Program-made: the position numbers and the translations under genes
The notes under the pieces: model-generated
Told to the model about the DNA's origin: nothing
Database searches by the model: none
The model's input: only the letters and a program-made list of their open reading frames with translations
Part shown: one piece after another, positions 12,077-51,476 of the stretch
How the letters are laid out: the number at the start of each line of letters is the position of its first letter
Position numbering within the stretch: position 1 is the stretch's first letter
Source: Pseudomonadota bacterium
GTDB taxonomy: Bacteria > Bdellovibrionota_B > Oligoflexia > Oligoflexales > CAIYRB01
NCBI GenBank assembly: GCA_026390445.1
Contig: JAPLFX010000016.1
Coordinates: 1-57,295, forward strand
Length of the DNA stretch: 57,295 bases
Reading direction: 5' to 3'

Positions 12077-12943
12077 ATGTTGCATGGTCGCTGGAAATCC
12101 GCCTTCTGCCTGGCTTGGCTCATTGCCAACAGCCCGCAGCTGCGTGCGGAAGATGGCCCAGTGGATCCAGTCCTGACGTTCGACTTCGGTGATACTAAAG
12201 TGGTCTACAAGCGCTCCGAATTGCTGCAGCGCCCTGATCTCGAGCATATTGAAGTCGCCGCCGATGCCAGCTATCCAGGGCGAAAGATGAGCTACCAGGC
12301 AGTGCCAGCGGCCAAGCTCTTCGCTAACCAAAAAATATCGCCACAGGCGGTTATTCAGTTCCAGTGCTTGGACGGCTTTTCTGCCCCGATCAGCAAGGAA
12401 CGTCTACTAAACAGCGATAAGCATCAGTCCGTAGCTTATATTGCGATCGAGACCCCGGATGCGCCTTGGCCCGCTGTGAAGGCTGGTGGTCCCTCAGCTG
12501 GGCCTTTCTATCTGGTGTGGCCGCAGCCTAAACTGTCGCAGATAGGCCCTGAAGAGTGGCCGTTTCAGCTGGTTGGATTTAGTCTCAGAGAAAATCTACG
12601 GCAACTTTATCCCGCCATCTTTCCAGTTGAGCCAGCCAGCGCCGAGGTGCAGCAGGGCTTTGCATCTTTCGCCAAAAATTGCTTTCCGTGCCACACGATG
12701 AACCGTCAAGGAACGGCCGAGGTCGGGCCCGACCTCAATGTGCCCTATGGCCCTACCGAGTATCTGAATCGCCGGTCGTTGCGTCGCTTGATTCGCAATC
12801 CCCAGGATCTGCGTTACTTTCCGAAGTCGCGGATGAGCGCCTTCCCGAAGAGCTCCCTGCCGGATGAAGAATTGAACCACCTGATTGCCTACCTTGCGCA
12901 CATGACCAAGCATAAGGTGGCGACCACGGCTAAACACCATTAA
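12077..12943 (+). CDS. SUOX-fold (molybdopterin-like) domain fused to cytochrome c
   Basis: 288 residues with an N-terminal signal peptide (to about residue 24, QLRA). Residues 30-180 resemble the sulfite-oxidase/molybdopterin-binding fold (dL-x-v-x-v patterns, YQAVPAAKLF, IQFQCLDGFSAPI, GPFYLVWPQ), but I see no clear molybdenum-coordinating Cys context, so cofactor binding is doubtful. Residues 195-285 form a class I cytochrome c with CFPCH and a possible Met ligand in SRMSAFP. It is the first gene of the + strand run with an outer-membrane barrel (16 bp gap) and ABC genes. A periplasmic redox or copper-protein-like role is inference. Confidence 0.7.
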   Translation: MLHGRWKSAFCLAWLIANSPQLRAEDGPVDPVLTFDFGDTKVVYKRSELLQRPDLEHIEVAADASYPGRKMSYQAVPAAKLFANQKISPQAVIQFQCLDGFSAPISKERLLNSDKHQSVAYIAIETPDAPWPAVKAGGPSAGPFYLVWPQPKLSQIGPEEWPFQLVGFSLRENLRQLYPAIFPVEPASAEVQQGFASFAKNCFPCHTMNRQGTAEVGPDLNVPYGPTEYLNRRSLRRLIRNPQDLRYFPKSRMSAFPKSSLPDEELNHLIAYLAHMTKHKVATTAKHH

Positions 12944-12959
12944 TGATCTGGAATCTCCG

Positions 12960-14318
12960 ATGCACTCACTTGATGTTCGACACCGCCGCTTGAGTACCCT
13001 CCACGTTCTAGTCGTCACAGCCGGAATAGGCGCTGCGACGTCAGCCGTCGCCGCTCCTGCCCCCGACGGATTGGTCTTTGGCGGTACGTTATCCTTGTTG
13101 ACGGTCGCAGAGCACCTCGATCTAGATAAGGGCAGTCCGCTCAATCCGAGCAACGAAAACATTCAGGCGCCGCACGACGTGTTGACCTCAGAACTACGGC
13201 CGAACATCAAAATCACCGCCAAGAACGTGCAGTTGATCGCCAGGCCCAGGGTCCATTACACCTATGGCCTAGTCCAGGTGGACCAGCATGAGCGCGACCC
13301 GTCCAGCGCGACGACTAGCTATCTAAGCGAGGCTTTTGGCCAGTGGACTGTCTCGGAGTCGTTGAGTTTTTCCTATGGTTTGCAGAGCTACCAGTGGGGT
13401 TCGGCTGAGGCCCTGAGTCCAAGCAACCGCATCTTTCATGAAACCGCAGTGCAGCGGAATATCCTCTACGAGGTCCGCGGCCACAACCTGGCTCGGCTGA
13501 ATTTTAGTGCCGGCAAGTCCTTTAGCACCGTCGTCATGGCCGAGGTCAAAGACAATCCTGAAGATAAGACGACCTTTGTTGCAGATGAGGTGTGGCAGCC
13601 AAAAGCGCTGATTAAATCCGAGTACAACTGGAACGAAGGATCCGACTACTTTGGCATCGTCGCCGGCGCCTACCAGCATGGGCTGCCGTGGGTCGGTGAA
13701 TACTTCAGCTCAGGACTCCCGTTTTTCGATGGTCTTTCGGTGTTTGCTGATATCAGCCATCAGTGGGGTAGTGACGCCTGGTATCCTGAGGCAAATACCG
13801 TGGCTACGCGGCTTGGACCCCAGCAGCAGACGACCTTCGTGCAGGCCTTCCAGAACAGTCGAAAAACCTTCACTTTGGCTGCTGCAGGCCTGAAGTATGA
13901 CTTTATTAACGGCGTCATTGTCCGCGGGGAATATATCTTCAACGAGGCCGGCTATACGCGGCAGCAATTTCAGGCGGCAACTGCCGCCGTCGCCTCGAGA
14001 AACCCGCTGCAGCTGGCCGTTCTAGGTGATAATGTGCGGCGTTTTCTCGGTTCTGGCCTGGACCTTCCGGGGCAGCGCTATGGCTATGTATCGCTGCACG
14101 TGCCAGACTTTCTGACGATCCGCGACCTGATGTTCGATGCTAGGACCTTTTACGCGCTCGCCGATCATAGCTCATTATCTTATGCGAGTTTAGACTATAA
14201 AGCCGGAGATCATGGTACGGTGTCACTAGCCAGCGCAGGTTCGACCGGTCCCAAAGACGGCGAATTGCGCGGCTACGCAAAATCGGTCGAGTACCTCTCG
14301 TACCGCCACGACTGGTGA
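12960..14318 (+). CDS. Predicted outer-membrane beta-barrel protein
   Basis: 452 residues with a signal peptide ending near VAAPA (about residue 32). The mature part has alternating beta-strand patterns and many aromatic-girdle Tyr/Trp residues (VHYTYGLVQV, SLSFSYGLQSYQWGS, ILYEVRGHNLARLNFS) and ends with a short aromatic segment SYRHDW, consistent with a porin-like barrel. No named family was recognised. Close spacing (16 bp from the cytochrome gene, 9 bp to the ATPase) suggests it is the outer-membrane part of the ABC system encoded here. Confidence 0.65.
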   Translation: MHSLDVRHRRLSTLHVLVVTAGIGAATSAVAAPAPDGLVFGGTLSLLTVAEHLDLDKGSPLNPSNENIQAPHDVLTSELRPNIKITAKNVQLIARPRVHYTYGLVQVDQHERDPSSATTSYLSEAFGQWTVSESLSFSYGLQSYQWGSAEALSPSNRIFHETAVQRNILYEVRGHNLARLNFSAGKSFSTVVMAEVKDNPEDKTTFVADEVWQPKALIKSEYNWNEGSDYFGIVAGAYQHGLPWVGEYFSSGLPFFDGLSVFADISHQWGSDAWYPEANTVATRLGPQQQTTFVQAFQNSRKTFTLAAAGLKYDFINGVIVRGEYIFNEAGYTRQQFQAATAAVASRNPLQLAVLGDNVRRFLGSGLDLPGQRYGYVSLHVPDFLTIRDLMFDARTFYALADHSSLSYASLDYKAGDHGTVSLASAGSTGPKDGELRGYAKSVEYLSYRHDW

Positions 14319-14327
14319 TGGAGATTT

Positions 14328-15022
<695 letters not shown>

Positions 15023-15026
<4 letters not shown>

Positions 15027-16387
15027 AGGCCGGCCAATGGTCCATGGCATGGCGCAACCTAGCGCGCAACCGCCGCCGTAATATCGCTACTGGGGTCGCC
15101 ATCGGCCTAGGTTTTGCGGCATTTCTGGCGATTGGCGGTTATATTTCGCAGGTGGAAAACCGGCTTCGGGTCTACACGATCTTTGGGACTCGTGTCGGTC
15201 ATGTGACGATTTATAAACAAGATGGTCTGGAGCGTTTTTCGACCAAGCCGAAGCAGTACAGCTTAGATGAGCACGACCTGGCAGTGATTCGGGAGATGGC
15301 CAGCGGCATGCCCAATGTCGAGCTGCATGGTCCACAGTTGGTCGGTATGGGGCTGATTGGCAACGGCTGCCGCTCGGTACCGTTTCTCGCTTCGGGGATC
15401 GAGCCGGATCTCGACCGTAAACTGCGGGCTCACCCTGAGATGAAGGCTTGGGTGCCCGATATCCGTGATTTCAGCAAGGGACGGGGACTATGGGAATACC
15501 CTGAGTCGGTGGGTGCCATCGGACTCGCCACAGGCCTGGCGAAAATCCTCGGCAAAACGAAGGTATACGATGACTTTCCGGCGGACCATAAAGCCGTCGT
15601 GGTCGCCGATTGTTTGGCCGCCGATGCTAAACAGAAGATCGACTCAGATAGCAATGTCCAGCTGGTCGCTGGATCTTGGTCGGGGATGATGGCGGCCCTT
15701 GATGGCGAGGCGGTCGTCAACTTCAACTCGGGCATGACTGAAACCAACAGCGCCGCGATCATGATGCCACTCAAGCTGCTGCAAAAGCTTTATGATACCG
15801 ACCATGCGACCTATTACTCACTGTGGCTCAAAGACCCCAGCCATTTGGACCGTGAGCTGGCTGCGGTCAAATCGAAGTTGAAGGACGCCGGGCTCTCAGT
15901 CGATGTGTATCCTTGGACTGATGAGGCCGTGGCACCTTTTTATACGGGGACGATCCAGTTCCTCAGTGTCATGACGTCTTTTATTAAGATCGTCCTAGCC
16001 TCTGTCATCATCTTTTCGATCTTCAATTCGGCGACCATGACGGTGATCGAACGCTCGCAGGAGATCGGGATGATGCGCTCGATGGGCTTTACCAGGCGCC
16101 ATGTGCGGCAATTATTTGTCGCCGAAATGCTGCTGCTGACGCTGCTGTCGGTGCTTGGTGGAGGAATCGTCTCATTTTTTGGCAATATTGCGGTCAATAT
16201 GTTGAAGATCCACTTCAATCCTCCTGGCGTTGCGGCGGGTCTATTGCTTAGGATCGACCCAACTGTGAGTACAGTCGCCGCAGCGACCGTCGTCATCTTT
16301 GTCCTCGCGGTACTCACGACCTTGCTCGCGGTCAGGTCGGTCGCCAAACAGAATATCGCCATCTTATTGATGGGGTCTCAGCGCTGA
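15023..16387 (+). CDS. FtsX/LolC-type ABC permease
   Basis: 454 residues with one N-terminal TM helix (about 20-45), a large periplasmic domain (about 45-310) and three C-terminal helices (about 315-345, 370-400, 425-445). This is the MacB/LolCE topology. The cytoplasmic loop after the second helix has the family pattern MTVIERSQEIGMMRSMGFTRRHV. It is translationally coupled to the LolD-like ATPase. A second, divergent permease of the same family lies two genes downstream, so the complex may be a heterodimer like LolCE. The cargo is unknown. Confidence 0.88.
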
Positions 16388-16423
16388 GAGCGCTGGATTT
16401 GTCCAACAGACTGGAGAGCTCAG

Positions 16424-17221
16424 ATGTATACAGCACCGATTCGTAGCCTCGTCACCGCTTTCGCTGTCCTTTCGCCCTGGGTGCTAGGACATGCTTCATT
16501 GGCCAGCGGTGCGGAGGCTGCGCCAAAGGCGGCTCAGGCCGCTCCAGTCGACGCCGGGCAGTTGCTCAAGGATTCTGACCGGGCACGTGGCGCGGTTGGC
16601 GAAGGGATTAGTTGGGAGATCGATGTCCAGACCTTTGAGGATGGCACGACCAATCAGGTTCACTACCAGGTCAAGGTCAAGGGCGTCGATGCGCTTGCCG
16701 AAGCCATGCAGCCGGCTCGTAACAAGGGCGAGACGATGCTCTTTAACGACCGGAATCTATGGTTTTTTAAGCCGGGACTGAAAAAGCCAGTGGCGATCTC
16801 GGCACGGCAAAAGCTGATGGGCCAAGCCGCCAATGGCGACATCGCCTCGACTAACTATAATCGTGACTATGACGGTAAGATCTCTGGCGAGGAAACCGTC
16901 AACGGCGAAGCGTGCTACAAACTTGATCTTAAGGCTAAGGCAAAGAACGTCACCTATGACGGCATTCGCTACTGGATCACCAAGAAGGATCACCTAGGCT
17001 GGAAGGCAGAATTTCTGACGGTCAGCGGTGAGATGTTTAAGAGTGCCTTGTTCAAATACGGCAATCATCTCAAGATCGATGGTAAAGAATTACCCTTTGT
17101 TAGCCAGATGGATATCAACGATGCCCTTAAACCGGGCAGTCACACCTTGATCCAGTATTCCCAGCCGCATGCCGAGGCGCATCCGGAAAGCCTCTTTAAC
17201 ATCAATAACCTGGTGAGATAA
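16424..17221 (+). CDS. LolA-like outer-membrane lipoprotein-sorting family protein
   Basis: 265-residue predicted periplasmic protein. The signal peptide (about 1-30) is followed by a LolA/LolB-like half-barrel pattern (SWEIDVQTFEDGTTNQVHYQ, ETMLFNDRNLWFFKPGLKKP, SGEETVNGEACYKLDL, GIRYWITKKDHLGWKAEF). This matches the secreted family annotated as outer membrane lipoprotein-sorting protein and not classical LolA. Its place between two FtsX-type permeases suggests that it receives a hydrophobic cargo from the ABC complex and ferries it across the periplasm. GGAG lies upstream of the start; the next gene begins 7 bp after its stop. Confidence 0.82.
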   Translation: MYTAPIRSLVTAFAVLSPWVLGHASLASGAEAAPKAAQAAPVDAGQLLKDSDRARGAVGEGISWEIDVQTFEDGTTNQVHYQVKVKGVDALAEAMQPARNKGETMLFNDRNLWFFKPGLKKPVAISARQKLMGQAANGDIASTNYNRDYDGKISGEETVNGEACYKLDLKAKAKNVTYDGIRYWITKKDHLGWKAEFLTVSGEMFKSALFKYGNHLKIDGKELPFVSQMDINDALKPGSHTLIQYSQPHAEAHPESLFNINNLVR

Positions 17222-17228
17222 CCCCGCC

Positions 17229-18569
17229 ATGGCAGGACAACAGACGGCGATCTATAGGCAAATGACCCGCTTGGCTTGGCGCAACGTGCTACGCAATTGG
17301 CGGCATAGCTTGGCGACGATTCTGGCGATTGCTTCGGGTTTTATCGCTGTGTCGCTATTTGACGGGTTTTTGGAGCAGCTTGAGTACCGGAATAAAGACG
17401 GGTATCAAACCAGGGCGATGCTTGGTCATGTCCTGGTTCAGCACAAGGACGCGCAGTACAATAGTACTGAAGATCAGTGGCTTTATGCGATGACCGCACA
17501 GGAACAGCGTTTTGTTGAAGACTTTTTACAACACGACCCAGACTTTCTGCGTCGGGTACGCTTTCTCAATATCAGCGGCATGGTCAACGCTGGGCCGTAC
17601 AACACGGTATTCGTCGGCCTTGGTCACGACACCAAAGAGGGCGCCGAGGTGCGGGGTCCGCGTTGGTCCTGGTATACAGTCGCTGGGGTACCCCTGGAGC
17701 AGTATCCCAAGTCGTCGGTGACGATCGGCATTGCGCTGGGTAAACTCATCGATTGTGAGTCCACCTATCAGGGCCCGCCTTATATCCTCGACGCAGGTAA
17801 CTACATCGCAGAAGACCGGCCATTTACCTGCAAGTATCCACGCATCACAATGTCGGCGACAACTGAAGCATCGCAGGTTAACGCCATCGATGTGCCGGTT
17901 TCAGGTATCTTTGACGCGGGCTTTCGCGAGGCGGATAAGCGGGCCGTGCGCTTGAGTTTGGCCGATGCGCAGCGCTTGATGGATACCGACAAGATCTCGC
18001 TACTATCGGTCGAACTTAAGGACGAGAGAATGCGTAAGGGCTTTATCAAGCGGCTTAAAGCCGCTGCCGAGGCCGCTCATCTCGAACTAGATATCCTGCC
18101 ATGGCAAGAGCACACGCTGGCCGCCTTCCTCCAGGGAGGACTGGATGTTCTGCATGTGTTTCGTGACCTATTTATGACGATTGTCGTCACCATCGGCATC
18201 ATGTCGGTCGCCAATACCATGATGAAGGCGGTCAACGAGCGTATTCGCGAAATTGGTACCCTGCGCAGCTTGGGTTTCTTGCGGCAGCATCTAGTCTATA
18301 TGTTTTCGATGGAAGGCCTCTTTCTCAGTCTGCTAGCTTGCGCGCTCGGGCTTGTCGGCACGGTGGTATTGACCGTGGCGATTGGCATGCTTAGGTTCAA
18401 ATACCGCGCTGGAGTTTTGTCGGCTCCGATCGTGCTGTCCGTGGCCTGGTCATGGCAGGCATGGATCCTGTGTACGCTCGTGTTGATGTCCCTTGCGACC
18501 GGCACCGCTTGGTTCTGTTCGCGGCGTGCCAGTCGCATGGTCATCGCTGATGCTATGCGTCACGTCTAG
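17229..18569 (+). CDS. FtsX/LolE-type ABC permease, second subunit
   Basis: 446 residues with the same four-helix MacB/LolCE layout as the permease at 15023-16387 but divergent sequence: an N-terminal helix (about 25-45), a periplasmic domain, and three C-terminal helices. The loop after helix two reads NTMMKAVNERIREIGTLRSLGFLRQHLV, the diagnostic ERxxEIGTLRxxG pattern. It lies 7 bp after the LolA-like gene. It is probably the partner of the other permease in a heterodimer. Cargo and direction are unknown. Confidence 0.87.
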   Translation: MAGQQTAIYRQMTRLAWRNVLRNWRHSLATILAIASGFIAVSLFDGFLEQLEYRNKDGYQTRAMLGHVLVQHKDAQYNSTEDQWLYAMTAQEQRFVEDFLQHDPDFLRRVRFLNISGMVNAGPYNTVFVGLGHDTKEGAEVRGPRWSWYTVAGVPLEQYPKSSVTIGIALGKLIDCESTYQGPPYILDAGNYIAEDRPFTCKYPRITMSATTEASQVNAIDVPVSGIFDAGFREADKRAVRLSLADAQRLMDTDKISLLSVELKDERMRKGFIKRLKAAAEAAHLELDILPWQEHTLAAFLQGGLDVLHVFRDLFMTIVVTIGIMSVANTMMKAVNERIREIGTLRSLGFLRQHLVYMFSMEGLFLSLLACALGLVGTVVLTVAIGMLRFKYRAGVLSAPIVLSVAWSWQAWILCTLVLMSLATGTAWFCSRRASRMVIADAMRHV

Positions 18570-18586: not shown

Positions 18587-19372
18587 GTGGTTGATGACAA
18601 CTCGATCTTCAAGGGGCTCATCGACCACCTTCAAAGCAGTAGAGCGCAGGATTTACTGCGGCGTATCGATGAACTGCGGGCATTGCTGGTGCGCTTTTCA
18701 GTGGTCTTGCTGGCTTTTGTCTGCGGCGGTTTTTATTTTGCCAAAGACATTCTTTTATTTCTTAAGGAGCCTCTAGCCGCAGCCATTCCTTCGCAAAAGA
18801 ATGTGCTGCACTTTACAGGGCCGATGGAGGTCATGCTGGCCTACATGAAGGTGTCCTTCATGGTCGGGCTGGTGGTCGCGGCACCCTATGGCTTGCTTTT
18901 ATTGTGGCGGTTTATTGGCCCAGCACTGCCGCAGGAGCATCGCAAATTCGTCATGCCGTTCTTTAGTGCTTCGGTCGGTTTATTTTTGATCGGAGTGGTC
19001 TTTTGCTACTATGCGATGCTTCCGATGGGCTTTAAATGGCTCATTGGTTTTGGTGGCGACCAGGCCGCTCCGGTCATTACTGTCGCCGAATACATCGACA
19101 TGATGACTTTTATGCTGGTGGGGTTTGGTGCGGCATTCCAACTGCCGCTGGTGATCATCCTGCTCGAACGCCTGGGTCTTATCAATGAGCAGATGTTGCG
19201 GAAGAATCGTGGCTTTATCTTGGTCGGAGTGCTGATTTTAGCAGCGGTGATTGCACCATCGCCTGATCCTGTGTCGATGATCTCGCTTGCCATCCCGATG
19301 TATCTCATGTTTGAGGGCGCCCTAGTGGTCATCAAACGCCTCAAGAAAAGCCAGCTGCCGGTGGTCGGTTGA
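18587..19372 (+). CDS. tatC: Sec-independent protein translocase TatC
   Basis: 261 residues with six predicted helices. TatC hallmarks are visible: an N-terminal IDELRALLVR (family LxELRxRL), the TGPMEVMLAYMKVSF segment, PALPQEHRKFVMPFF, and the polar-flanked helix pair ending LILAAVIAPSPDPVSM. TatC is the receptor of the twin-arginine export system and binds RR signal peptides. The start is GTG 18587 with a modest AGG upstream. No tatA or tatB is found in the window, so these must lie elsewhere. Its 17-bp distance from the permease gene suggests read-through with the preceding ABC run. Confidence 0.92.
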   Translation: MVDDNSIFKGLIDHLQSSRAQDLLRRIDELRALLVRFSVVLLAFVCGGFYFAKDILLFLKEPLAAAIPSQKNVLHFTGPMEVMLAYMKVSFMVGLVVAAPYGLLLLWRFIGPALPQEHRKFVMPFFSASVGLFLIGVVFCYYAMLPMGFKWLIGFGGDQAAPVITVAEYIDMMTFMLVGFGAAFQLPLVIILLERLGLINEQMLRKNRGFILVGVLILAAVIAPSPDPVSMISLAIPMYLMFEGALVVIKRLKKSQLPVVG

Positions 19373-19430: not shown

Positions 19431-20291
19431 ATGTGCAGGTTTTTAGCGTATAAGGGCGTTCCAATTGTGGTGCACAAGCTGATTTTTGAGCCAAAAAACT
19501 CACTGATCAATCAAAGCTTCGATGCTCGCGAAATCGAAGAACCCTTGAATGGCGATGGATTTGGCGTCGGCTGGTACAGCCCGGACATCGACCCTGAGCC
19601 AGCCGTCTTTGTCTCGATGTCGCCGGCGTGGAGCAACCGCAACCTGCGCTACTTGGCGCCTAAGATTCGTTCGACCTGCATCTTTGCCCATGTCAGGGCC
19701 GCTAGTGTTGGCGATATTGCCGAGGCCAACTGTCATCCCTTTCACTATAAGCGCTTGATGATGATGCATAACGGCGGCATCGAAGGCTTTGCAAAGATCA
19801 AGCGGGTCCTACGTCGAGGCTTAAGCGATGAAATGTACAGTTGGATCCACGGCGAAACCGATTCAGAGCACTTTTTTGCACTATTTCTCGAGTTTTTGCG
19901 CGCCAAGGGCGATGACTACAAGCTAAGCGATATGGCCGATGCGATGAACCAGACCGTTGCCGCAGTCGAAGCGATGAAGCTTGCTGCTGGGGTCACCGAT
20001 GGCACTTATCTCAATATGGTGATTACCAATGGGAGTGAGATGCTGGCGACGCGCTTTATCACGACCGACGAAGAGCCGTTGTCCTTGTATTTTTCCGAGG
20101 GGAGTCGCTATGTCTGCGAAGATGGCGTGTGCCAAATGATGCCAGCCGATCCTAGCGAGCATGCCGTTTTGATCGTCTCAGAAAAATTGACTGGGGAGCG
20201 GGGTGACTGGCGCCCGGTACCAGCCAACCACATGATCCTGGTCGATAAAGATAGCAAAGTCAGCTTTCGCCGGATGGGAGCTACTTCTTAG
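19431..20291 (+). CDS. Class II glutamine amidotransferase (YafJ/EgtC-like)
   Basis: 286 residues beginning MCRFLAYKG, so that removal of Met exposes the catalytic N-terminal Cys2. Further family features are NGDGFGVGWY (about 40-50), FAHVRAAS, a HPF segment, HNGGIEGF (about 110-118) and GETDSEHFFALF. Such stand-alone GATase II proteins hydrolyse a glutamine or gamma-glutamyl amide. YafJ-like members have no firmly known substrate, and EgtC acts in ergothioneine synthesis, for which no partner genes are present. Its 3' end overlaps the convergent 27-haem cytochrome gene by 11 bp. Confidence 0.87.
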   Translation: MCRFLAYKGVPIVVHKLIFEPKNSLINQSFDAREIEEPLNGDGFGVGWYSPDIDPEPAVFVSMSPAWSNRNLRYLAPKIRSTCIFAHVRAASVGDIAEANCHPFHYKRLMMMHNGGIEGFAKIKRVLRRGLSDEMYSWIHGETDSEHFFALFLEFLRAKGDDYKLSDMADAMNQTVAAVEAMKLAAGVTDGTYLNMVITNGSEMLATRFITTDEEPLSLYFSEGSRYVCEDGVCQMMPADPSEHAVLIVSEKLTGERGDWRPVPANHMILVDKDSKVSFRRMGATS

Positions 20292-22647
20292 CGTGAAACG
20301 TAAATTGGTTGTGGCAGCTGCCACAGTCCTCAAATCCCGGCTGCTTGTGGTTGGGGAAGGCGACCGCGCGCGCTTCTTTGATGTGACATCCGGCACAATC
20401 CGTCGGCGATCCCTGATACACACCGCTTTTGTGGCAGGCGTTGCATTCGGCGACGCGGTGGGCGCCAATCAGCGGGAAGTCGGTCATCGAGTGATGGAAG
20501 GTGTTGGCTGACCAGGTCTGCTGCATATGGCAGCTGGCGCAGTCGGGTAGGCCCCCTTGATGCCTATCATCTTTGCGGTGACAAAATTGGCAGTTGTCAT
20601 TTAGGCCGGTCAAACGTCGATCTTTGAAGTGGCACTGCTCGCATGCGAGCAAATTATGCGCGCCTGTAAGAGTGTAATTTTTGTGGAAGCTGCCGATCGA
20701 TGCCCATTTGTTGGCTTCGTTATGGCACTCAACACAGCGACCACCAAATTTACCCTTGTGCGGATCGACGTGGCAGGTTGCGCAGTTGCGCGTGGCTAGG
20801 TCAGGAAAGATAAATTTGGCTTTAGCGTGATGCTTAGTGCCAGGAAACGCCTCTTTGGTTGGCGTATGGCATTTTTCGCAGCTCAGCGGTATGTGCTTGC
20901 CGGTAATTTCATAAGCAGTGGTGTGGTGGTCGAAGGGCTTTCGCTTGAGGAAGGTGTCGGTATTATGGCAGGTGCGGCAGTCCTTTTCGGCGAATTCGGT
21001 GTGGAACTGGCCGATATGCACGTTCTTGTGGCAGTCGACGCAAAAGCCGCTACTCGCATGGGCGAAGATAAACTGCCCGGCTGGCTTTGGCGGTTTAGTC
21101 GCCAGCATTTTGCCTGGCGCACGGATATGGCAGGTGTCGCAGGCCTTTACCTTGAGATGATCGCCGTCCAATTTAAACCGAGTTTCGTTGTGGTCAAAAG
21201 ACTTCAGCATGCTCGCGGCGAAGGTTTTGGTGCCGTGGCAGTCGGCGCAGGAGGCTGAGTTAAAGCTTGGGCTAAACTGTTCTTTGTGCACGCTAGCATG
21301 GCAACTAACGCAAAACTGCTTGTCGGCGTTGGCAAATTTATAGATGTCTTTGCCATCTTTGACATGGCAGGATTTGCAACTGATGCCTTCGTGTTTGCCG
21401 GTAAGCGCAAATTTGGTGAGCGTGTTGTGGTCGAATTTGCCCTTTTCCAGGCGGGTCAACTCGAGCCAACTCGAGGTGACATGGCAGGAAGCGCAGGGCT
21501 TGGCGAGGAGCTTGGGCGGAAATTTGCCGATATGTGGGTTGGTATGGCATGCCGCGCAGCCGTTCTTGCTTAGGTGCTCCCAGTGGTATTGCCGCAGCGG
21601 CGGGTCTTTTCCGGAGGCGATGAGGCTTGAGAGCTTATTCGCGGACTTTGATCGCTCCGCGGTGTCACTGGAGCTGCCGTCGATCTTCGCCTTCACCCGC
21701 AGACTCTTGTCTAAAGGAAGATGGCAATCGTTGCAACGGACCTGGGTGTGCTTACCATCCAGGACGTAAGTGGTCTTGGTGTTGTGATTGAAGGTAATCT
21801 GCGTTTTCCAGCTTTCCTCTTTATGACAGGTCTGACAGCTGGCTAGCTTGCCGAGTTTGGCCGTTTTGAGGCCGTCAAACCCGTGGTAGTCGGCATGGCA
21901 GGAGTTACACGCTTGCTTTAGTCCTTCCCAATGAAAGACTTTCTTGCCGAGCGCCGCACGCGCCAAGTCGGGCTTGTGGCAGTCGACGCAGGCCGCCTCG
22001 GCATGTTTACCTTTTAGCTCCCAGTGTCCATCCTTCTTGTGGTCGAAGGTGATCTTGTCCTTCCAGGTCGTCTCAACGTGGCAGCTATTGCAGTCCTTTT
22101 TCGCCGTTTTGCCTGTAAATGCGTGCGGATCATCTTTGGTATGGCAGCTCACACAGGTGGCGGTTTTGCCGAAGAAGCGGTGATCGGTCTTGCGGATGGC
22201 CCGGTCACTGCGCTGCGCCGTGTGGCAGTCGACACAATCGATGTCTTGGTGTTTGGGCGCTAGTGGGAAGCCGGTTTTAGCGTGATCGAAGTCCTCGGTG
22301 TCAAAGGCTAGGGCATCAAAATCTCGTCCTTTGTGGTCGCTGTGGCAGGCGTAGCAAGGCTTGTCGGTAAGCTTATGAAAGGATTTGGGTCGTGCCATCG
22401 ATTGCTTAATGTCTTTATGACACTCGAGGCACTTTTGATCCGGCACTCCTTTACCAGCAGCATGGCAGGACAGGCAGTCGGTATGTTCTAATTTCTTATG
22501 ACCCTCCATCAATGGACCTGGGGCGAGTAGCTTGTTCATGAGGCCCTCGCGAGCCTTTTTTGCTGGTGGAGGCTGGTCCGCGGCGAAAGCTGCGGGATGG
22601 ACCCATAAGGCCAGGATCAACGATAAAGCGGCAAGGATGCGCTGCAT
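20281..22647 (-). CDS. 27-haem c-type cytochrome, predicted extracellular or outer-membrane conduit component
   Basis: 788 residues after a signal peptide (MQRILAALSLILALWVHPAAFA). I count 27 CXXCH motifs, the first at Cys58 and the last in CGSCHNQFTFHAKK at the C-terminus. The chain is built from repeats of about 80-90 residues with the pattern FDH...F-L-x-GKH....CxxCH, seen at least eight times (for example YVLDGKHTQVRCNDCH, FALTGKHEGISCKSCH, YEITGKHIPLSCEKCH). Regular His residues outside CXXCH could be distal ligands (bis-His haems). It begins directly after the barrel gene stop with no gap. The likely role is a nanowire-like terminal cytochrome passing electrons to acceptors outside the cell (inference). 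Confidence 0.93.
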   Translation of the reverse strand: MQRILAALSLILALWVHPAAFAADQPPPAKKAREGLMNKLLAPGPLMEGHKKLEHTDCLSCHAAGKGVPDQKCLECHKDIKQSMARPKSFHKLTDKPCYACHSDHKGRDFDALAFDTEDFDHAKTGFPLAPKHQDIDCVDCHTAQRSDRAIRKTDHRFFGKTATCVSCHTKDDPHAFTGKTAKKDCNSCHVETTWKDKITFDHKKDGHWELKGKHAEAACVDCHKPDLARAALGKKVFHWEGLKQACNSCHADYHGFDGLKTAKLGKLASCQTCHKEESWKTQITFNHNTKTTYVLDGKHTQVRCNDCHLPLDKSLRVKAKIDGSSSDTAERSKSANKLSSLIASGKDPPLRQYHWEHLSKNGCAACHTNPHIGKFPPKLLAKPCASCHVTSSWLELTRLEKGKFDHNTLTKFALTGKHEGISCKSCHVKDGKDIYKFANADKQFCVSCHASVHKEQFSPSFNSASCADCHGTKTFAASMLKSFDHNETRFKLDGDHLKVKACDTCHIRAPGKMLATKPPKPAGQFIFAHASSGFCVDCHKNVHIGQFHTEFAEKDCRTCHNTDTFLKRKPFDHHTTAYEITGKHIPLSCEKCHTPTKEAFPGTKHHAKAKFIFPDLATRNCATCHVDPHKGKFGGRCVECHNEANKWASIGSFHKNYTLTGAHNLLACEQCHFKDRRLTGLNDNCQFCHRKDDRHQGGLPDCASCHMQQTWSANTFHHSMTDFPLIGAHRVAECNACHKSGVYQGSPTDCAGCHIKEARAVAFPNHKQPGFEDCGSCHNQFTFHAKK

Positions 22648-24012
22648 TCAAAACCTCTCGCTGGGCGGAGCGACATCGCGGATAGGTGCGAACGCGCGGT
22701 TGCCAAAGCGGTAGCCGAGGGTCAACAGTCCGCTGGTGATGGTAGCCTTCTCGTTGTGCGCGTACTCGGTGCCGACGGAGCCCAAAACGCTATGGGAAAA
22801 GACGTGGCCAACGTTCAGGCCGACAATCACTGGATGAAGGTTTTCGCCGCTGTCCTGATGTCTGATCCCGACTCTGAGATCGCCCGAAACCTCCCACACT
22901 TCAGAGTAGTGCGTCAGGTTGTTGTTGAGAAATAGATCATTGCTTAAAAAATTACGTCGATAGCCGACTAAAGTGCTCAAAGCGGCATGCCCACCAAGAA
23001 TCTTGGTGAAGGTCGGGCCGGTCGCCACCTCAACCTTGCGTAGGTGATCGAGATAGCGCTCCCCGTAAAGGACATAGCCGTCGAGGCGGGATATCGTCGT
23101 CAGCTTATAGCGCGACCCAACTTTTAGCTGCTGATAGGAACTGGCCGATAAGGTTTCAAAAATATCGCGGTGATTCTTGTACTCCGTTAGATCGATGCGT
23201 GAGTAGGTCAGCGCGGCATTTAGCGCCGGACTAAAACGGTGGTCGTAACCAATGACGGCGTCCTCGGCCTTGACCTCGGGTCTTACCGCGAAATCCAGGT
23301 AGGTGTTGACCCGGTCATTTGGTCCGAAATGTAGAAACGATTGATTGATATAGTCCAAGGCTTCGGTAGGTGCGTCGTAGACAAAAGTACGCGGAGCAAA
23401 GACCAGCATGTTACTGCTGTACTTTCCTTCGCTCCAATTGTTGCCCTCGCTTTGGTAAACCTCGTAGGCGCCGACTTGGACGGCGGTGGCCTGTAGCTCG
23501 ACTGCGCGCTCATCGTTGACGCGCGGGCGAAATCCGGCGAAGACGCCAACGCTGTTTGCGCCATTCACCTTATAGCCGACTTCAGCTCCATCGTTATAGA
23601 TGATGCCGTTGTCGGCAGGTAAAAAGCGTCCCACCGACCAGAAATAGGGATGCGTATTGCCAGGGTCCTTCCAGGCCAACAAGCGTAGCCGGAATTTGTT
23701 TTGCCCCGAGAGGTTTAGTCTGGCCGTATCGACTTTATCAAAGAAATCGTGGTTGTCGCGGACGTCGGTGACGAATTCATATTGGGTTTGCCCAATCTTG
23801 GTGACGTCCAGGTACGCGCGATTGGAATAGATCAGCTGGTCATTGTCCTTGCTGCCGGCAATGGACCCGGGAAAGGACTCCTTGGCGGCGTAGGCGCCGG
23901 TTAGTAGATGTCCGGTGTAGTCGTAGGCCAGTGCCTGCTTGGCCGGTGCCGAGGCAAGCAGCGCCAACAAAGCAAGGTGTTTTATATCTCGGTAGCGCAG
24001 ACGAATGCTCAT
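22648..24012 (-). CDS. Outer-membrane beta-barrel, predicted porin of an electron conduit
   Basis: 454 residues with a signal peptide ending near QALA (about residue 28) and a mature part made of alternating amphipathic strands (TQYEFVTDVRDN, KFRLRLLAWKDPG, NTYLDFAVRPEV, VTSGLLTLGYRF-like end). No CXXCH is present. The gene overlaps the tetrahaem cytochrome by four bases and abuts the 27-haem gene, a gene order like that of porin-cytochrome conduits (MtrCAB, OmbB-OmaB-OmcB), although I do not recognise sequence similarity to MtrB. Proposed role: a sheath that lets cytochromes cross the outer membrane. Confidence 0.72.
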   Translation of the reverse strand: MSIRLRYRDIKHLALLALLASAPAKQALAYDYTGHLLTGAYAAKESFPGSIAGSKDNDQLIYSNRAYLDVTKIGQTQYEFVTDVRDNHDFFDKVDTARLNLSGQNKFRLRLLAWKDPGNTHPYFWSVGRFLPADNGIIYNDGAEVGYKVNGANSVGVFAGFRPRVNDERAVELQATAVQVGAYEVYQSEGNNWSEGKYSSNMLVFAPRTFVYDAPTEALDYINQSFLHFGPNDRVNTYLDFAVRPEVKAEDAVIGYDHRFSPALNAALTYSRIDLTEYKNHRDIFETLSASSYQQLKVGSRYKLTTISRLDGYVLYGERYLDHLRKVEVATGPTFTKILGGHAALSTLVGYRRNFLSNDLFLNNNLTHYSEVWEVSGDLRVGIRHQDSGENLHPVIVGLNVGHVFSHSVLGSVGTEYAHNEKATITSGLLTLGYRFGNRAFAPIRDVAPPSERF

Positions 24013-24431
24013 TTATTGATCGGTGGATAGAATTTTGGAAAGGCATGGCAAGAGACACAATCCGCCTTGGTGTCTGGATGCGGATTGGCCTTCGGTCGCA
24101 AACTACCATGACAGGGAATGCAAGCGGTTGGTGCCGGCACGTGCGAGAACTGCGAAAACGACTTCCAGATTGGGTCGGCCGTGATGTAACGGTGGCACAC
24201 GGCGCAGTCTTGGCCGCTACCATGCGGGATCACGTCTACCGGTGGTGGGCGTGTGGCTTCGTGGCACGACACGCAACTAGCGGTAAAGTTGGCGTGGTCG
24301 ATCGTCGGCTTTTGAAACGCCGAGTCGTTGACTGCCGGTCGGTTAAAGCCGCACTGCGTCAGTACCAAGAGAAAAAGGACCGCAACGAAGCTGGAGCCGA
24401 TGGCTGCCAAGGTAGAGTAGGCTCTTTTCAT
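24009..24431 (-). CDS. Tetrahaem periplasmic c-type cytochrome
   Basis: 140 residues with an N-terminal hydrophobic segment (about 8-26). Four CXXCH motifs start at Cys53, Cys76, Cys104 and Cys125, and extra His residues (such as DHANF, FSHVP, PHPD) could serve as distal ligands. The segment VLTQC at Cys27 resembles a lipobox, but the -1 Gln is atypical, so it may instead be an uncleaved membrane anchor. It overlaps genes on both sides by four bases. Probable role: periplasmic electron carrier between the inner-membrane oxidoreductase and the outer-membrane complex. Confidence 0.87.
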   Translation of the reverse strand: MKRAYSTLAAIGSSFVAVLFLLVLTQCGFNRPAVNDSAFQKPTIDHANFTASCVSCHEATRPPPVDVIPHGSGQDCAVCHRYITADPIWKSFSQFSHVPAPTACIPCHGSLRPKANPHPDTKADCVSCHAFPKFYPPINK

Positions 24432-25801
24432 GTGGGTGCCAGTTCTTTGCTCAGAGGTTCACCAAATTTTTTGTCGATTTTGATCCCTAGTTCGGCAAAA
24501 AAACGCTTTTGAAGTTCAGCGCCGATGAATATAAATAAATAGTCATTGGCTATGGTCCGAGATCCGCTTTGGTCGGTGATCGACAGGGAGTCCGGTGTAA
24601 TCTGCGTGACCTTGGCGTTGAAGCGCAGGTCGAGCAGGCCTTGCTCGGCACACAGCCGCACCGCTCTTTGGTTCTCGTCGTTGCAGCGATCAAAATCCGC
24701 GGTGGCCACGAGCATGGTCACCTGATTGCCGTAGCTCTTCTTGCATAAATACTGGACCGCCTCAGCGGCGGCATTGCCGCTGCCGACGATGGCAACCTTT
24801 TGCTTTTGATATTGCTCTGGTTCAATGAGGTTATAGGTGACTTTGGCGAGATCTTCGCCGGGCACGCCAAGGCGCCTTGGTGTGCCTCGCACTCCAGTGG
24901 CGAGGATGACTTTATGGGCGGTCATCTGCCCCCCGCTGGTTTCGACACGAAACACGTCGCCGTCTTTCACTAGGGTCTTGAACTGTGTTTGCTCTTTGAC
25001 CTGCAGCTTGTATTGGCTGCGGATGTCATCCCACTTGGCCATGAGCTGTGCCTTGGAGACTTTATGATGAGGAAATTTCATCGGTCCGATTAGCGGTAGG
25101 TCGGCAGGCTGGGTCATGATGATTTTCTGTCGTGGAAAATTGGCGATGGTGCCGCCAAAGGAGCCTTGTTCCAGGCAAACATAGCGCAGCTTTGCCGCCA
25201 GGGCGCCAAGGGAAGCCGCGATTCCTGCTGGCCCTGCACCGATGATGAGGAGGTCGTACTCAGCCTTAGCGCGGAGGCCCTGGTCTGGGCTTAGCTGCGA
25301 TGCGGCATGTTCCACCGCCAGTCGTCCTTGTTTGACTGCATTGCGGATCAGTCCCATGCCGCCTAGTTCGCCGGCGATATATAAGCCCGGGATGTTGGTT
25401 TCGAAGTGGCCAGAGATGCGGGGCAATTCCCGTCCGCGAGTCTTGGTGCCAAAGACCAAGGAGATGGCGTCAAAGGGACAGGCTGCTTCGCACTGGCCAT
25501 GCCCGACACACTTTGTTGGAGCCACCATGACGGCGCGGTGCTGGATCAGCTGGAGGATTTCACCTTCGGGGCAAGCGCGCACACAGGCGCCGCAGCCCGC
25601 ACATTTGGCGGGGTCGATCAATGGATGGAGCGAAAATGGTTCGTTGAGGTTTTTCTCGATGGTGTCTTGGAGGGTCGAGCTGGCTAGAGCATGCCGTCTA
25701 CGGCGCCGCCTGACGCCGTAGATGGTGACCCCAAGCATCGCTGCAGCCATCAACCAGGCTAACTGGTCGGCGATCCAAAATGAAATTTGCGACCAGTCCA
25801 T
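24428..25801 (-). CDS. Membrane-anchored FAD/NAD(P)-dependent oxidoreductase with two ferredoxin clusters
   Basis: 457 residues: one N-terminal helix (6-30) followed by RRRRRR, so the bulk faces the cytoplasm; two [Fe-S] motifs, Cys67-70-73-77 (CAGCGACVRACP) and Cys98-His101-Cys104-Cys108 (CVGHGQCEAACP), where a His replaces the second Cys; then an FAD Rossmann motif IIGAGPAGIAAS (186-197) and an NAD(P) motif AIVGSGNAAAEA. It is thioredoxin-reductase-like in fold but lacks the CxxC redox pair. Probable role: NAD(P)H oxidation, with electrons passed through FAD and Fe-S centres to the cytochrome b-like protein encoded upstream (28 bp gap). Confidence 0.85.
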   Translation of the reverse strand: MDWSQISFWIADQLAWLMAAAMLGVTIYGVRRRRRRHALASSTLQDTIEKNLNEPFSLHPLIDPAKCAGCGACVRACPEGEILQLIQHRAVMVAPTKCVGHGQCEAACPFDAISLVFGTKTRGRELPRISGHFETNIPGLYIAGELGGMGLIRNAVKQGRLAVEHAASQLSPDQGLRAKAEYDLLIIGAGPAGIAASLGALAAKLRYVCLEQGSFGGTIANFPRQKIIMTQPADLPLIGPMKFPHHKVSKAQLMAKWDDIRSQYKLQVKEQTQFKTLVKDGDVFRVETSGGQMTAHKVILATGVRGTPRRLGVPGEDLAKVTYNLIEPEQYQKQKVAIVGSGNAAAEAVQYLCKKSYGNQVTMLVATADFDRCNDENQRAVRLCAEQGLLDLRFNAKVTQITPDSLSITDQSGSRTIANDYLFIFIGAELQKRFFAELGIKIDKKFGEPLSKELAPT

Positions 25802-25829
25802 GACAGATCACTCCGCGAAGCCTAGGGCC

Positions 25830-26612
25830 TCAGTTAACCCTAAAGAGCAGTTCGGCGACGATGTGGATCACCGCGACCACGTACATAAACACCGCAAAGG
25901 GTACATGAAAGGTATGCCAGTAGCCCATCAACCGCTTGTAGGCGTCGAGCAGCGTGATCTTGCGCCGCATCAGTCCATACTCTTTTAGCTTTTTCTTGAT
26001 CGGTGGCGACACCCCAGGGGGGGTTGGCAAAGGGGAAAGTCGCAGGCGCACATCGCCGACTAAAGAGAACCACAGGATTAACGCAAGATTTGCGTCATTC
26101 GCTCCCATGTCAAAGCCGCCAAAAGCCAAACGCATGGCGTCTGCTTTCATGACACTTAGGTTTGCCGTATTATAGATTTGCGGTTGCAACGCCAGGACCT
26201 TGGCAAAGCCGGCGTCGTAGCGTTTGAGCTGCGCCTTTAAGTGGCCTCGAGCTTGCAGCAGTTGGGTGTAGAAATAGCGGCCGACGACGCCGCTGGCAAA
26301 GCTAATGATCATGCTCCAAAAGCTGATAGCCACTAAGCCGCTGACCTTAAAGTGGGTGTGGAACACCACCAAAGTGGGGCCGACCAGCCCGCAGAAAATG
26401 TGAAAGTCCAGCCACCGTGACGGCTTGCCGACGTGCTGCAGGGCAGGGATCTTTTTGCGCAGTACGTACAGATTAGTCAGGCACATGATGCCAAAGCCGG
26501 CCCATCCTAGCCAATAGCACACCTGTGGGGTCAACAGCGGGCGCATAAACGCCCAAATCCCGCTCATAGTCGCGAGTAGGAGTATCCAGATGGTAAAGTA
26601 GAGACGGATCAC
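25830..26612 (-). CDS. Cytochrome b-like inner-membrane protein
   Basis: 260 residues with about five to six hydrophobic helices. Conserved-looking His residues sit within helices in pairs: LDFHIFCGLVGPTLVVFHTHF (about 70-90) and YWHTFHVPFAVFMYVVAVIHIV (about 233-254), which could ligate two b haems across the membrane. A cytoplasmic or periplasmic loop rich in Lys (PIKKKLKEYGLMRRK) precedes the last helix. The start is GTG 26612, with AAAGG about 11 bases upstream. As first gene of the operon, it is the likely link between the FAD/Fe-S protein and periplasmic cytochromes, possibly as a quinone or direct b-haem relay. Confidence 0.75.
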   Translation of the reverse strand: MIRLYFTIWILLLATMSGIWAFMRPLLTPQVCYWLGWAGFGIMCLTNLYVLRKKIPALQHVGKPSRWLDFHIFCGLVGPTLVVFHTHFKVSGLVAISFWSMIISFASGVVGRYFYTQLLQARGHLKAQLKRYDAGFAKVLALQPQIYNTANLSVMKADAMRLAFGGFDMGANDANLALILWFSLVGDVRLRLSPLPTPPGVSPPIKKKLKEYGLMRRKITLLDAYKRLMGYWHTFHVPFAVFMYVVAVIHIVAELLFRVN

Positions 26613-26877: not shown

Positions 26878-27246
26878 ATGATGCGTTCGCCAGCACCAGT
26901 CCTACGCCTATTCGTCAGCGCCTTTGTTGTCCTAGCCCCTTTAGTGATCGGAGGATGCAGCAGCAGCAGCTCGTCGTCTCCGGCGCCAGCGTCGCCGGCC
27001 CCGACGACGGGGACCGCGACGGCCGTATCCACGTCTTACAAATCACTGTGTGTGAGCTGCCACGGTGCTGATGGAGCGCTGACGACCATCACCCCCAAGG
27101 TGCTTAAGGGCACTGCCCTCACTTCAGCGACATACTCCGCCGCCATCCGCAGTGGACGTACTGGCACGAGCATGACGGCGTACACTGCGGCGCAGATGTC
27201 GGATGCCGATATTGCTAATGATTTCGCATTCTTCACTAAGAAGTGA
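26878..27246 (+). CDS. Monohaem cytochrome c lipoprotein
   Basis: 122 residues. The signal sequence ends in a good lipobox, VIGGC (Cys23), followed by a Ser/Pro/Ala/Thr-rich flexible linker and a short class I cytochrome c core: CVSCH with a probable distal Met in TSMTAYT. An AGGAG-rich sequence lies upstream of the two adjacent ATGs. It is transcribed away from the 27-haem operon and may supply or accept electrons in the same chain, but that is inference from position only. It resembles the protein at 8778-9266. Confidence 0.82.
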   Translation: MMRSPAPVLRLFVSAFVVLAPLVIGGCSSSSSSSPAPASPAPTTGTATAVSTSYKSLCVSCHGADGALTTITPKVLKGTALTSATYSAAIRSGRTGTSMTAYTAAQMSDADIANDFAFFTKK

Positions 27247-46873: not shown

Positions 46874-48763
<1,890 letters not shown>

Positions 48764-48783
48764 CAAATGAGGAACAGCACAAA

Positions 48784-49188
48784 ATGTTGACCGCCCCCCT
48801 TGCGAAATACACCCATAGCCGGCGCGTTGGGTCCTTGCTCTTTATCGCTGGGCAGGGATGTCGAGATCCAGGCACCAACAGCTATGCCGGCGTCGAGCGC
48901 GACGCCCATGGCATCGTCGTGCGTCATGATATTGCGACGCAGGCGGCTGCTGTGCTCCACAACATCGAGCGGGTGTTGCACAGCCACGGCTTGCACCGGG
49001 GGCACCTGGTCGATGTCACCGTGTTTCTCACCGACATGGCCGAGTTTGAGGTGATGAATAAGGTTTGGAACGAGTTCTTCCGCGAATTTGCTCCGCCCAC
49101 GCGGACGACGGTCGCGGTGACGCGACTACCAGGAGATAACTTTATCGAAATGAAAGCGATTGCCGAAATAAATCAAACTGGGGTTTAG
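48784..49188 (+). CDS. amnD: 2-aminomuconate deaminase, RidA family
   Basis: 134 residues of the RidA/YjgF fold: GSLLFIAGQGCRDP near the start, AAVLHNIERVLHSHGL in the middle, and VTVFLTDM then APPTRTTVAVTRLPGDNFIEMKAIAEI at the end. RidA proteins hydrolyse enamines; next to AmnB/AmnC the assignment as 2-aminomuconate deaminase, giving 4-oxalocrotonate and ammonia, is well supported. GAGGA lies upstream of ATG 48784. It ends three bases before the dehydrogenase gene. Confidence 0.85.
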   Translation: MLTAPLAKYTHSRRVGSLLFIAGQGCRDPGTNSYAGVERDAHGIVVRHDIATQAAAVLHNIERVLHSHGLHRGHLVDVTVFLTDMAEFEVMNKVWNEFFREFAPPTRTTVAVTRLPGDNFIEMKAIAEINQTGV

Positions 49189-49191
49189 ACG

Positions 49192-50688: not shown

Positions 50689-51476
50689 TGGATCTTCAGC
50701 TGCGTGGCCTGAACGCTTTGGTTTGCGCGTCATCACAGGGACTAGGATTGGCCACGGCGCGGGCCTTGGCCGCTGAGGGCGTTAATCTATACCTATGCGC
50801 CCGAAGTGCCGACAAATTGGCCGCCGCTGCGGCCGACATCCGCGCCACTCATGGCGTCCGGGTCGAAACCGGAGCCCTCGATCTGAGCAGCGGCGAAGCC
50901 GCGCTTCGCTTGGCAGATCTAGCGCAGCATTCGCTCGGCCGCATCGACATCTTAGTGAACAATGTTGGCGGTCCAGCTCCAACCAAGGCGACGGACACCA
51001 GCGCAGAACAATGGCGCATCGGGTTTGAACAGGTGTTTCTCACAGCAGCCCAGTTAAGCAATGCGCTGCTACCGGCCATGCGGGCGGCCCAATTTGGACG
51101 AATCATCACGATTACGTCGATCAGCGTTCTTGAACCGATCGAGAATCTGGTGATCTCGACAGCGATGCGACTTGCCATCACGGGTTTTACCAAAACGCTT
51201 GCGGATGAGGTTGCGGCGGATGGGGTTACGGTTAATACGGTCCTACCCGGCGTGATCCATACCAACCGAATTGAAGATCTACGTCGCGCCAAGGCGCTAC
51301 GTTCTGGCACCACTCTTGCTGATGAAATGCAAAAGACGCAGCAGCAAATCCCAGCGCGCCGTCTTGGGCGGCCGGAAGAGCTTGGCGCATTTATTGCGTT
51401 CTTATCATCGAGGCATGCCGGCTATATCACTGGAACCCATACACCGATCGATGGTGGTTTGCGACGGGGCTGGTGA
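50688..51476 (+). CDS. Atypical short-chain dehydrogenase (BKR-like), active-site residues replaced
   Basis: 262 residues with the SDR Rossmann fold: the nucleotide motif is ASSQGLGLA (13-21) instead of TGxxxGIG, and NNVGG and ITSIS are kept. Alignment of the FTKTLA helix places Ser157 where the catalytic Tyr should be and Arg161 where the Lys should be (ISTAMR in place of YxxxK). This matches the BKR-like SDR subgroup that lacks a normal catalytic tetrad. Co-translated with amnC, it may have an unusual reaction or be structural. Its substrate is unknown. Confidence 0.8.
   Translation: MDLQLRGLNALVCASSQGLGLATARALAAEGVNLYLCARSADKLAAAAADIRATHGVRVETGALDLSSGEAALRLADLAQHSLGRIDILVNNVGGPAPTKATDTSAEQWRIGFEQVFLTAAQLSNALLPAMRAAQFGRIITITSISVLEPIENLVISTAMRLAITGFTKTLADEVAADGVTVNTVLPGVIHTNRIEDLRRAKALRSGTTLADEMQKTQQQIPARRLGRPEELGAFIAFLSSRHAGYITGTHTPIDGGLRRGW

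Follow-up and report, generated by a model that had tools for sequence, protein, structure and literature searches.

A PCC3/PCC4-like porin–cytochrome gene cluster with a putative NAD(P)H-type flavoprotein entrance in Oligoflexia

A five-gene redox cluster

The window (the whole 57,295-nucleotide stretch analysed) is contig 71 of a 4.17-Mb genome that is 93.4% complete. ORF reading of the window revealed five genes on the minus strand, running from 26612 to 20281 and encoding, in order of transcription, a membrane protein, a flavoprotein, a tetrahaem c-type cytochrome, an outer-membrane β-barrel and a large c-type cytochrome, with successive spacings of 28 nt, a 4-nt overlap, a second 4-nt overlap and 0 nt. 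The place and spacing of the genes and the haem counts of 4 and 27 proposed in a first-pass annotation were thus reproduced by ORF reading and CXXCH counting. The CXXCH count of the large cytochrome is far above chance, as shuffled versions of the 788-aa protein contained a mean of 0.3 and a maximum of 3 such motifs (2000 shuffles). The large cytochrome gene overlaps a convergent amidotransferase-like gene by 11 nt. Divergent from the cluster lies a gene for a monohaem cytochrome c (26878..27246, plus strand; Cytochrome_CBB3, E 3.4e-8), a possible periplasmic partner whose membership of the system is uncertain; a divergent upstream one-haem ORF (113–156 aa) is also found in the related clusters L014, L034, L035 and L036. 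Promoter-like sites numbered 4 against 3.5 expected and terminator-like sites 14 against 8.1 expected (s.d. 2.6), and neither count was used as evidence.

Membrane protein and flavoprotein

The first gene (25830..26612, minus strand; 260 aa, GTG start) encodes a predicted five-helix dihaem b-type cytochrome with the motifs W67-x3-H71-x13-H85, SG107-x2-G111 and W232-x3-H236-x13-H250. Residues M1, G36, G39, K53, M101 and W232, the four His, and the Ser and two Gly of SGxxG are invariant in 12 aligned sequences. He et al. 2017 reported a repeated WX3HX13H together with SGXXG as the signature of 47 inner-membrane proteins of PCC3 and PCC4 (PMC5566968). The conduit half of the cluster is therefore a variant of a described kind. 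The five helices were placed by hand, while a plain hydropathy cut marks three separate regions; charged loops between the hand-placed helices, read by the positive-inside rule, place the long loop and the loop between helices 2 and 3 in the cytoplasm. A PDB profile search for the membrane protein gave chance-level matches and no relative. The score against Ferric_reduct (PF01794) was 13.1 bits (E 0.1) versus a cut-off of 28, so membership of the NOX/ferric reductase family was rejected, the two HX13H pairs being present nonetheless. Both HX13H pairs are found in all ten plasmid membrane proteins compared, of which two lack SGxxG and eight lack the first Trp. In L022, the membrane protein gene adjoins two genes that by eye resemble cytochrome c assembly genes.

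The flavoprotein (24428..25801, minus strand; 457 aa) has one transmembrane segment (residues 9–27) followed by RRRRRR, so that its body is predicted to be cytoplasmic. Two Fe–S motifs follow, C67-C70-C73-C77 and C98-x2-H101-x2-C104-x3-C108; H101, a single Cys-to-His change, is invariant in 11 sequences, and a flavoprotein from Emticicia additionally has Ser in place of C70. Pfam matches were Fer4 and Pyr_redox_3, and phmmer matched PDB entries 7a76 and 7a7b. The predicted FAD and NAD(P) domains carry the dinucleotide motifs GAGPAG at 188 and GSGNAA at 340, the former standing where YpdA chains read GGGPCG.

Residues 113–180, searched alone, matched 19 PDB sequences at E up to 1 (best E 0.0016). 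Sixteen of these, among them 1ojt (P64K), are pyridine-nucleotide flavoproteins matched in their C-terminal part (the FAD segment of DLDH, TrxR and FNR chains); with the full-length query the same C-terminal placement came up only as a secondary match below significance (−2.2 bits). Because a segment of this C-terminal type precedes the FAD Rossmann fold, the protein looks like a circularly permuted YpdA/thioredoxin-reductase fold, an argument that relies on the consistent target position since the E-values are weak. Membership of the YpdA or TrxR family itself was rejected, as the scores were 162.9 bits versus 339.9 for the YpdA model and 77.2 versus 343.45 for TrxR, and the domain order is not linear. 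The window flavoprotein lacks the HRR residues that typically bind NADPH in TrxR. The earlier proposal that the input module differs in type from CymA holds, as the unit contains no NapC/NrfH-type quinol dehydrogenase; the only NapC/NrfH match above cut-off in the genome (contig C134) lies outside the unit, beside a gene that is nrfA-like by eye. On a Pseudoalteromonas plasmid (L054, 6932–9283), the N-terminal half of a 784-aa protein matches the permuted flavoprotein, with Fer4_5 and Fer4 domains further on and glycosyltransferase genes around.

Barrel and cytochromes

The barrel gene (22648..24012, minus strand) encodes a 454-aa protein without Cys, for which the AlphaFold2 model shows 22 strands (pLDDT 74, pTM 0.67); MtrB has 26. 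The 50 Foldseek matches listed, out of 894, were all generic outer-membrane barrels (TM-scores 0.19–0.49) and included no MtrB. A PDB profile search with the barrel gave chance-level matches only, and a search of plasmids gave no match.

The tetrahaem cytochrome (24009..24431, minus strand; 140 aa, 4 CXXCH) matches Cytochrom_CIII in Pfam (E 1.1e-6) and is a predicted lipoprotein, with Cys27 followed by Gly. This cysteine is kept in all seven aligned sequences, which comprise 6 of the 12 tetrahaem proteins and the L022 protein.

The large cytochrome (20281..22647, minus strand; 788 aa) carries its 27 haem motifs in nine groups of three, at average spacings of about 28, 21 and 35 and with 29.2 aa per haem. 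In 17 distinct complete proteins, several of them close relatives, the counts are 24 (four proteins), 27 (two), 30 (one), 33 (five) and 36 (five); the set comprises the window, L014, L016, L018, L020–L022, L025–L028 and L031–L036, after removal of the duplicates L024, L029 and L030 and of L023, which is cut by a contig end. All 17 are multiples of three, but triplet number was rejected as a strict rule since the Emticicia cytochrome has 23. The N-terminus is a hydrophobic signal peptide, its cleavage type read by eye. The single sequence had no match in the PDB; the best PDB profile match was 6r2q_A (E 1.1e-4, a weak match), the MtrA chain of MtrCAB, although the match table gives it another name. 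Membership of the decahaem MtrA family was rejected, the DmsE-family model giving 64.5 bits versus a cut-off of 192.2 and the protein having 27 haems. The structure model was very poor (pLDDT 35, pTM 0.18). The summed S, T, G, A and N composition is 0.31, against 0.32 in the first Emticicia cytochrome and 0.47 in the 40-haem one.

The signal peptide, the whole-triplet counts from 24 to 36, the weak MtrA profile match, and an N-terminal domain in common with 7-haem cytochromes encoded beside the same membrane-protein type make a periplasm-spanning wire more likely than a surface protein. The 27-haem protein had initially been read as the terminal outer cytochrome. These features point instead to a periplasmic location, and a place in the outer membrane or at the cell surface is more plausible for the tetrahaem lipoprotein than for the 27-haem protein.

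Conservation and distribution

We examined 19 related clusters, the window included, with L015 and L017 lying on the same contigs as L035 and L036. The flavoprotein served as the query that retrieved these clusters, so finding it in them is no independent evidence. Flavoprotein, barrel and large cytochrome occur together in 18 of the 19, the exception being L019, whose contig stops within the barrel. Barrel and large cytochrome genes are direct neighbours in all 17 distinct complete cases. Twelve of the 19 clusters have an adjacent 4-haem gene and one (L032) has a partial one; L022, where the gene order is rearranged, has a weakly similar 7-haem ORF in its place, and in five clusters (L016, L020, L023, L031 and L035) no tetrahaem gene was found as an ORF of at least 80 aa. 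The membrane protein gene is adjacent in 12 of 19 and non-adjacent in six (L020, L023, L025, L026, L027 and L033, the last with another ORF upstream of the flavoprotein gene), the remaining cluster (L028) having only 111 nt before the contig end and being counted in neither class. The part list of b-like membrane protein, tethered FAD/Fe–S oxidoreductase, tetrahaem cytochrome, barrel and 27-haem cytochrome is thus borne out as a syntenic unit in relatives. The description of the five genes as an obligate unit is not, given the five clusters without a tetrahaem gene and the six with a non-adjacent membrane protein gene.

Each gene was also searched separately in 58 genomes of the phylum. Matches to the membrane protein (E 1e-3), flavoprotein (E 1e-60) and barrel (E 1e-6) were each found in 12 genomes, and to the large cytochrome (E 1e-12) in 13; 11 genomes contain all four and 45 contain none, and since the carriers are confined to two families the 58 genomes are not independent trials, and a hypergeometric figure for the co-occurrence exaggerates their independence. 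Of the two remaining genomes, G027 (82% complete) has three of the main genes, without the membrane protein, and G030 (72% complete) has only the membrane protein and large cytochrome. Each of the six genomes of the window's genus has two flavoprotein matches (E 1e-60) and a single membrane-protein match; two clusters may therefore share one membrane protein. In the window's own genome the second, paralogous cluster (L023, contig C5, 1–5808) contains flavoprotein, barrel and the cut large cytochrome, without membrane or tetrahaem gene; where relatives of this copy are complete, they have 36 haems. Among the matches listed in a search of CC-licensed PMC literature, no report of this gene combination in Oligoflexia was found.

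Plasmid analogues

In addition to the syntenic unit in relatives, an analogue was found in Bacteroidota. Forty plasmid records match the large cytochrome, and nine were inspected at the match, namely eight 7-haem loci and that of Emticicia. Plasmid pEMTOL02 of Emticicia oligotrophica DSM 17448 carries in a row ccsA (by annotation), the membrane protein, the flavoprotein, 23-haem and 40-haem cytochromes, and a 538-aa protein. Membrane protein, flavoprotein and large cytochrome follow the order of the window, with 40% identity in the flavoprotein and 32.5% in the large cytochrome, whereas the 40-haem cytochrome is additional, the tetrahaem gene is missing, and 23 CXXCH is no multiple of three. 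The 538-aa protein has no detectable match to the window barrel. In CC-licensed PMC literature, no paper joining Emticicia, extracellular electron transfer and cytochrome was found.

The other eight loci have a three-gene module, a flavoprotein gene followed by the same membrane-protein type and a 7-haem cytochrome, in Spirosoma, Pontibacter, Sphingobium, Rhizorhabdus, Caulobacter, Methylophaga and Alteromonas. The membrane-protein type and the N-terminal cytochrome domain are in common with the window; the unrelated flavoprotein, the short cytochrome and the lack of an annotated porin directly beside the module in the stretches inspected are not. All eight 7-haem cytochromes match best within the N-terminal 280 residues of the window cytochrome, suggesting the N-terminal end as the docking site for the b cytochrome. 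The slot before the membrane gene is occupied in all eight by a flavoprotein or 2Fe–2S oxidoreductase by annotation, and the five domain-tested all contain FAD_binding_6, NAD_binding_1 and Fer2 (FNR type), unrelated to the window flavoprotein. In Sphingobium herbicidovorans, thioredoxin-reductase-like, cNMP and Fer4 domains lie beside the membrane protein and a 10-haem cytochrome, which matches the middle of the window cytochrome, not its N-terminus. One slot is filled by either of two unrelated kinds of flavoprotein, across three or more architectures, and this is the main argument, a comparative one, in favour of NAD(P)H-linked over quinol-linked input.

On an Alteromonas macleodii plasmid (L060), the module lies one gene before hydrogenase maturation and [NiFe] hydrogenase genes, a neighbourhood that suggests H2/NAD(P)+ electron traffic across the membrane. 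On four other plasmids (L059, L061, L062 and L063) it lies near copper or heavy-metal resistance genes and multicopper oxidases, and in L061 and L062 a DUF1622 gene follows it.

Comparison with known conduits

Comparison with PCC3 and PCC4 was made by published motifs and descriptions. Like PCC3, described by He et al. 2017 from Sideroxydans, Leptothrix and others, the cluster has the inner-membrane protein motifs with five (hand-placed) transmembrane helices, a porin (by model) and a large multihaem cytochrome with few residues per haem, predicted to be periplasmic. In Gallionellaceae, 21, 24 and 27 haems have been reported for periplasmic PCC3 subunits and 10 to 35 for the extracellular cytochromes (PMC10734462). 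PCC3 includes its own large extracellular multihaem cytochrome, whereas none is encoded in the window operon and none was found in its genome with the probes A4, PF14522 and PF14537; these are weak probes, PF14537 missing even the 27-haem gene, and together they detected only this cluster, the paralogue on C5 and a pentahaem protein on C139. Also unlike PCC3, the operon contains a flavoprotein and a tetrahaem lipoprotein, and about 22 barrel strands are predicted against up to 42 transmembrane regions reported for PCC3 porins.

PCC4, described in the same study from Hyphomicrobium and Zetaproteobacteria, shares the membrane-protein motif class, a porin, a tetrahaem cytochrome and the lack of an extracellular cytochrome, and by definition has its tetrahaem gene preceded by a redox gene (PMC5566968), as in the window. 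The haem numbers are 4 and 27 here, against three periplasmic cytochromes with 4, 5 and 10 haems. The cluster thus files as neither PCC3, as no large extracellular cytochrome was found, nor PCC4, by its haem numbers, and most likely works like them. MtrCAB, MtoAB and PioAB follow the same logic of a barrel and a multihaem cytochrome through the outer membrane, but with 10 haems, a CymA-type quinol oxidase and an MtrB-type barrel, which was not recognised here. MtrAB has been reported in magnetotactic Bdellovibrionota (PMC13200544).

Proposed mechanism and alternatives

Gene content, motifs, domain order, triplet build and co-occurrence were computed, and from them we infer, with a probability of about one half, a PCC3/PCC4-like porin–cytochrome conduit in which an NAD(P)H-type flavoprotein takes the place of a quinol oxidase at the cytoplasmic end. 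In this pathway, cytoplasmic NAD(P)H, the presumed donor, would reduce the predicted FAD of the anchored permuted reductase, whose putative Fe–S clusters would pass single electrons to the dihaem b membrane protein. With one haem predicted at H71–H236 near the inside and one at H85–H250 near the outside, the b protein would move electrons across the inner membrane, like a split NADPH oxidase. The 27-haem cytochrome would then accept them at its N-terminal domain and conduct them across the periplasm to a far end that the barrel, by a putative barrel–cytochrome contact, may keep in the outer membrane, with the tetrahaem lipoprotein as an optional relay in the outer membrane or at the surface. 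Outward flow is more likely. Were NAD(P)H the donor, reducing power could be released to minerals or partners, the putative final acceptors, bypassing the quinone pool. More tentatively, we propose that the conduit is quinone-independent altogether, a split NADPH-oxidase-like unit joined to a triplet-built wire in one operon that would drain cytoplasmic NAD(P)H to the outside, with module count (24 to 36 haems) setting its reach.

A quinone-linked conduit is rather unlikely. In it, the quinone pool would be the redox partner of the b protein, and the flavoprotein would act on the side, in regulation or repair or as another entry point, for instance for ferredoxin by way of its Fe–S clusters. 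Such a conduit would suit a dinucleotide site without the usual NADPH arginines. The PCC3/PCC4 authors proposed a quinone partner, and the PCC3 clusters they describe have no flavoprotein (PMC5566968). The window flavoprotein, in contrast, is found in 12 of 13 genomes with the large cytochrome, the exception being 72% complete, and an unrelated FNR-type flavoprotein occupies the same slot in the plasmid loci.

Inward flow, in which an outside donor (Fe(II), a mineral or a partner cell) would feed electrons through barrel and wire to NAD(P)+, aided by an energised membrane or a strong donor, is improbable. PCC3 and PCC4 were described from iron oxidisers (PMC5566968), the inner-membrane gene of PCC3 copy 2 is up in iron-oxidising Sideroxydans CL21 cells (PMC12442390), and the record of one relative names sediment of Lac Pavin, a ferruginous lake (PMC6386445). 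Reduction of NAD(P)+ would, however, be uphill, and the ES-1 PCC3 clusters were not induced and were down on Fe(II) (PMC8788666). As no RuBisCO match was found in the 93% complete genome, autotrophic iron oxidation as the main role is set low.

About equally improbable is a periplasmic reductase with an import channel, whose barrel would admit a soluble oxidised compound (metal, metalloid or chelate) for reduction by periplasmic haems with no electron exit: several 7-haem relatives lie near copper or heavy-metal genes, the Geobacter porin ExtI has a role in selenite and tellurite reduction (PMC5877670), and weak probes of the genome detected no large surface cytochrome, but 27 haems in whole triplets seem to fit conduction better than local catalysis, and the barrel and cytochrome genes adjoin without exception in the distinct complete clusters.

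For the favoured conduit with an NAD(P)H-type entrance, the first-pass suggestion of a new type of system survives in part. The system is not wholly new, as the membrane protein bears a signature published in 2017 for PCC3 and PCC4, both proposed from genomes (PMC5566968); the new parts are the putative NAD(P)H-type entrance, the apparently permuted flavoprotein and the triplet-built wire. A 2025 paper still calls PCC3 functionally unverified (PMC12442390), and the electron source of the PCC3/PCC4 inner-membrane protein has so far been a guess. The clusters described here, together with the cultured Emticicia strain, tie the PCC3/PCC4-type membrane protein to an NAD(P)H-type flavoprotein, making the choice between quinol and pyridine nucleotide directly testable, and the triplet build offers a simple handle on wire length.

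Genomic context

The genome also encodes a haem-copper oxidase, NrfH- and NrfA-like proteins (NrfA by eye) and a pentahaem cytochrome that by eye resembles that of alternative complex III. In the window, a convergent tatC gene (18587–19372; Pfam TatC) lies two genes beyond the cluster. An ABC ATPase, two FtsX-type permeases and a LolA-like protein are encoded in a row at 14328–18569, preceded by genes for a 452-aa protein without a Pfam match (12960–14318) and a cytochrome c (12077–12943); the row from 12077 to 18569 is possibly a lipoprotein or envelope export set. Further along, a gene at 41433–46688 encodes a 1751-aa protein with kinase, AAA, GAF and SpoIIE phosphatase domains, and 46874–51476 contains what by eye is an aromatic ring-cleavage-like catabolic row (two dioxygenase-like proteins, a RidA-like protein, an aldehyde dehydrogenase and an SDR).
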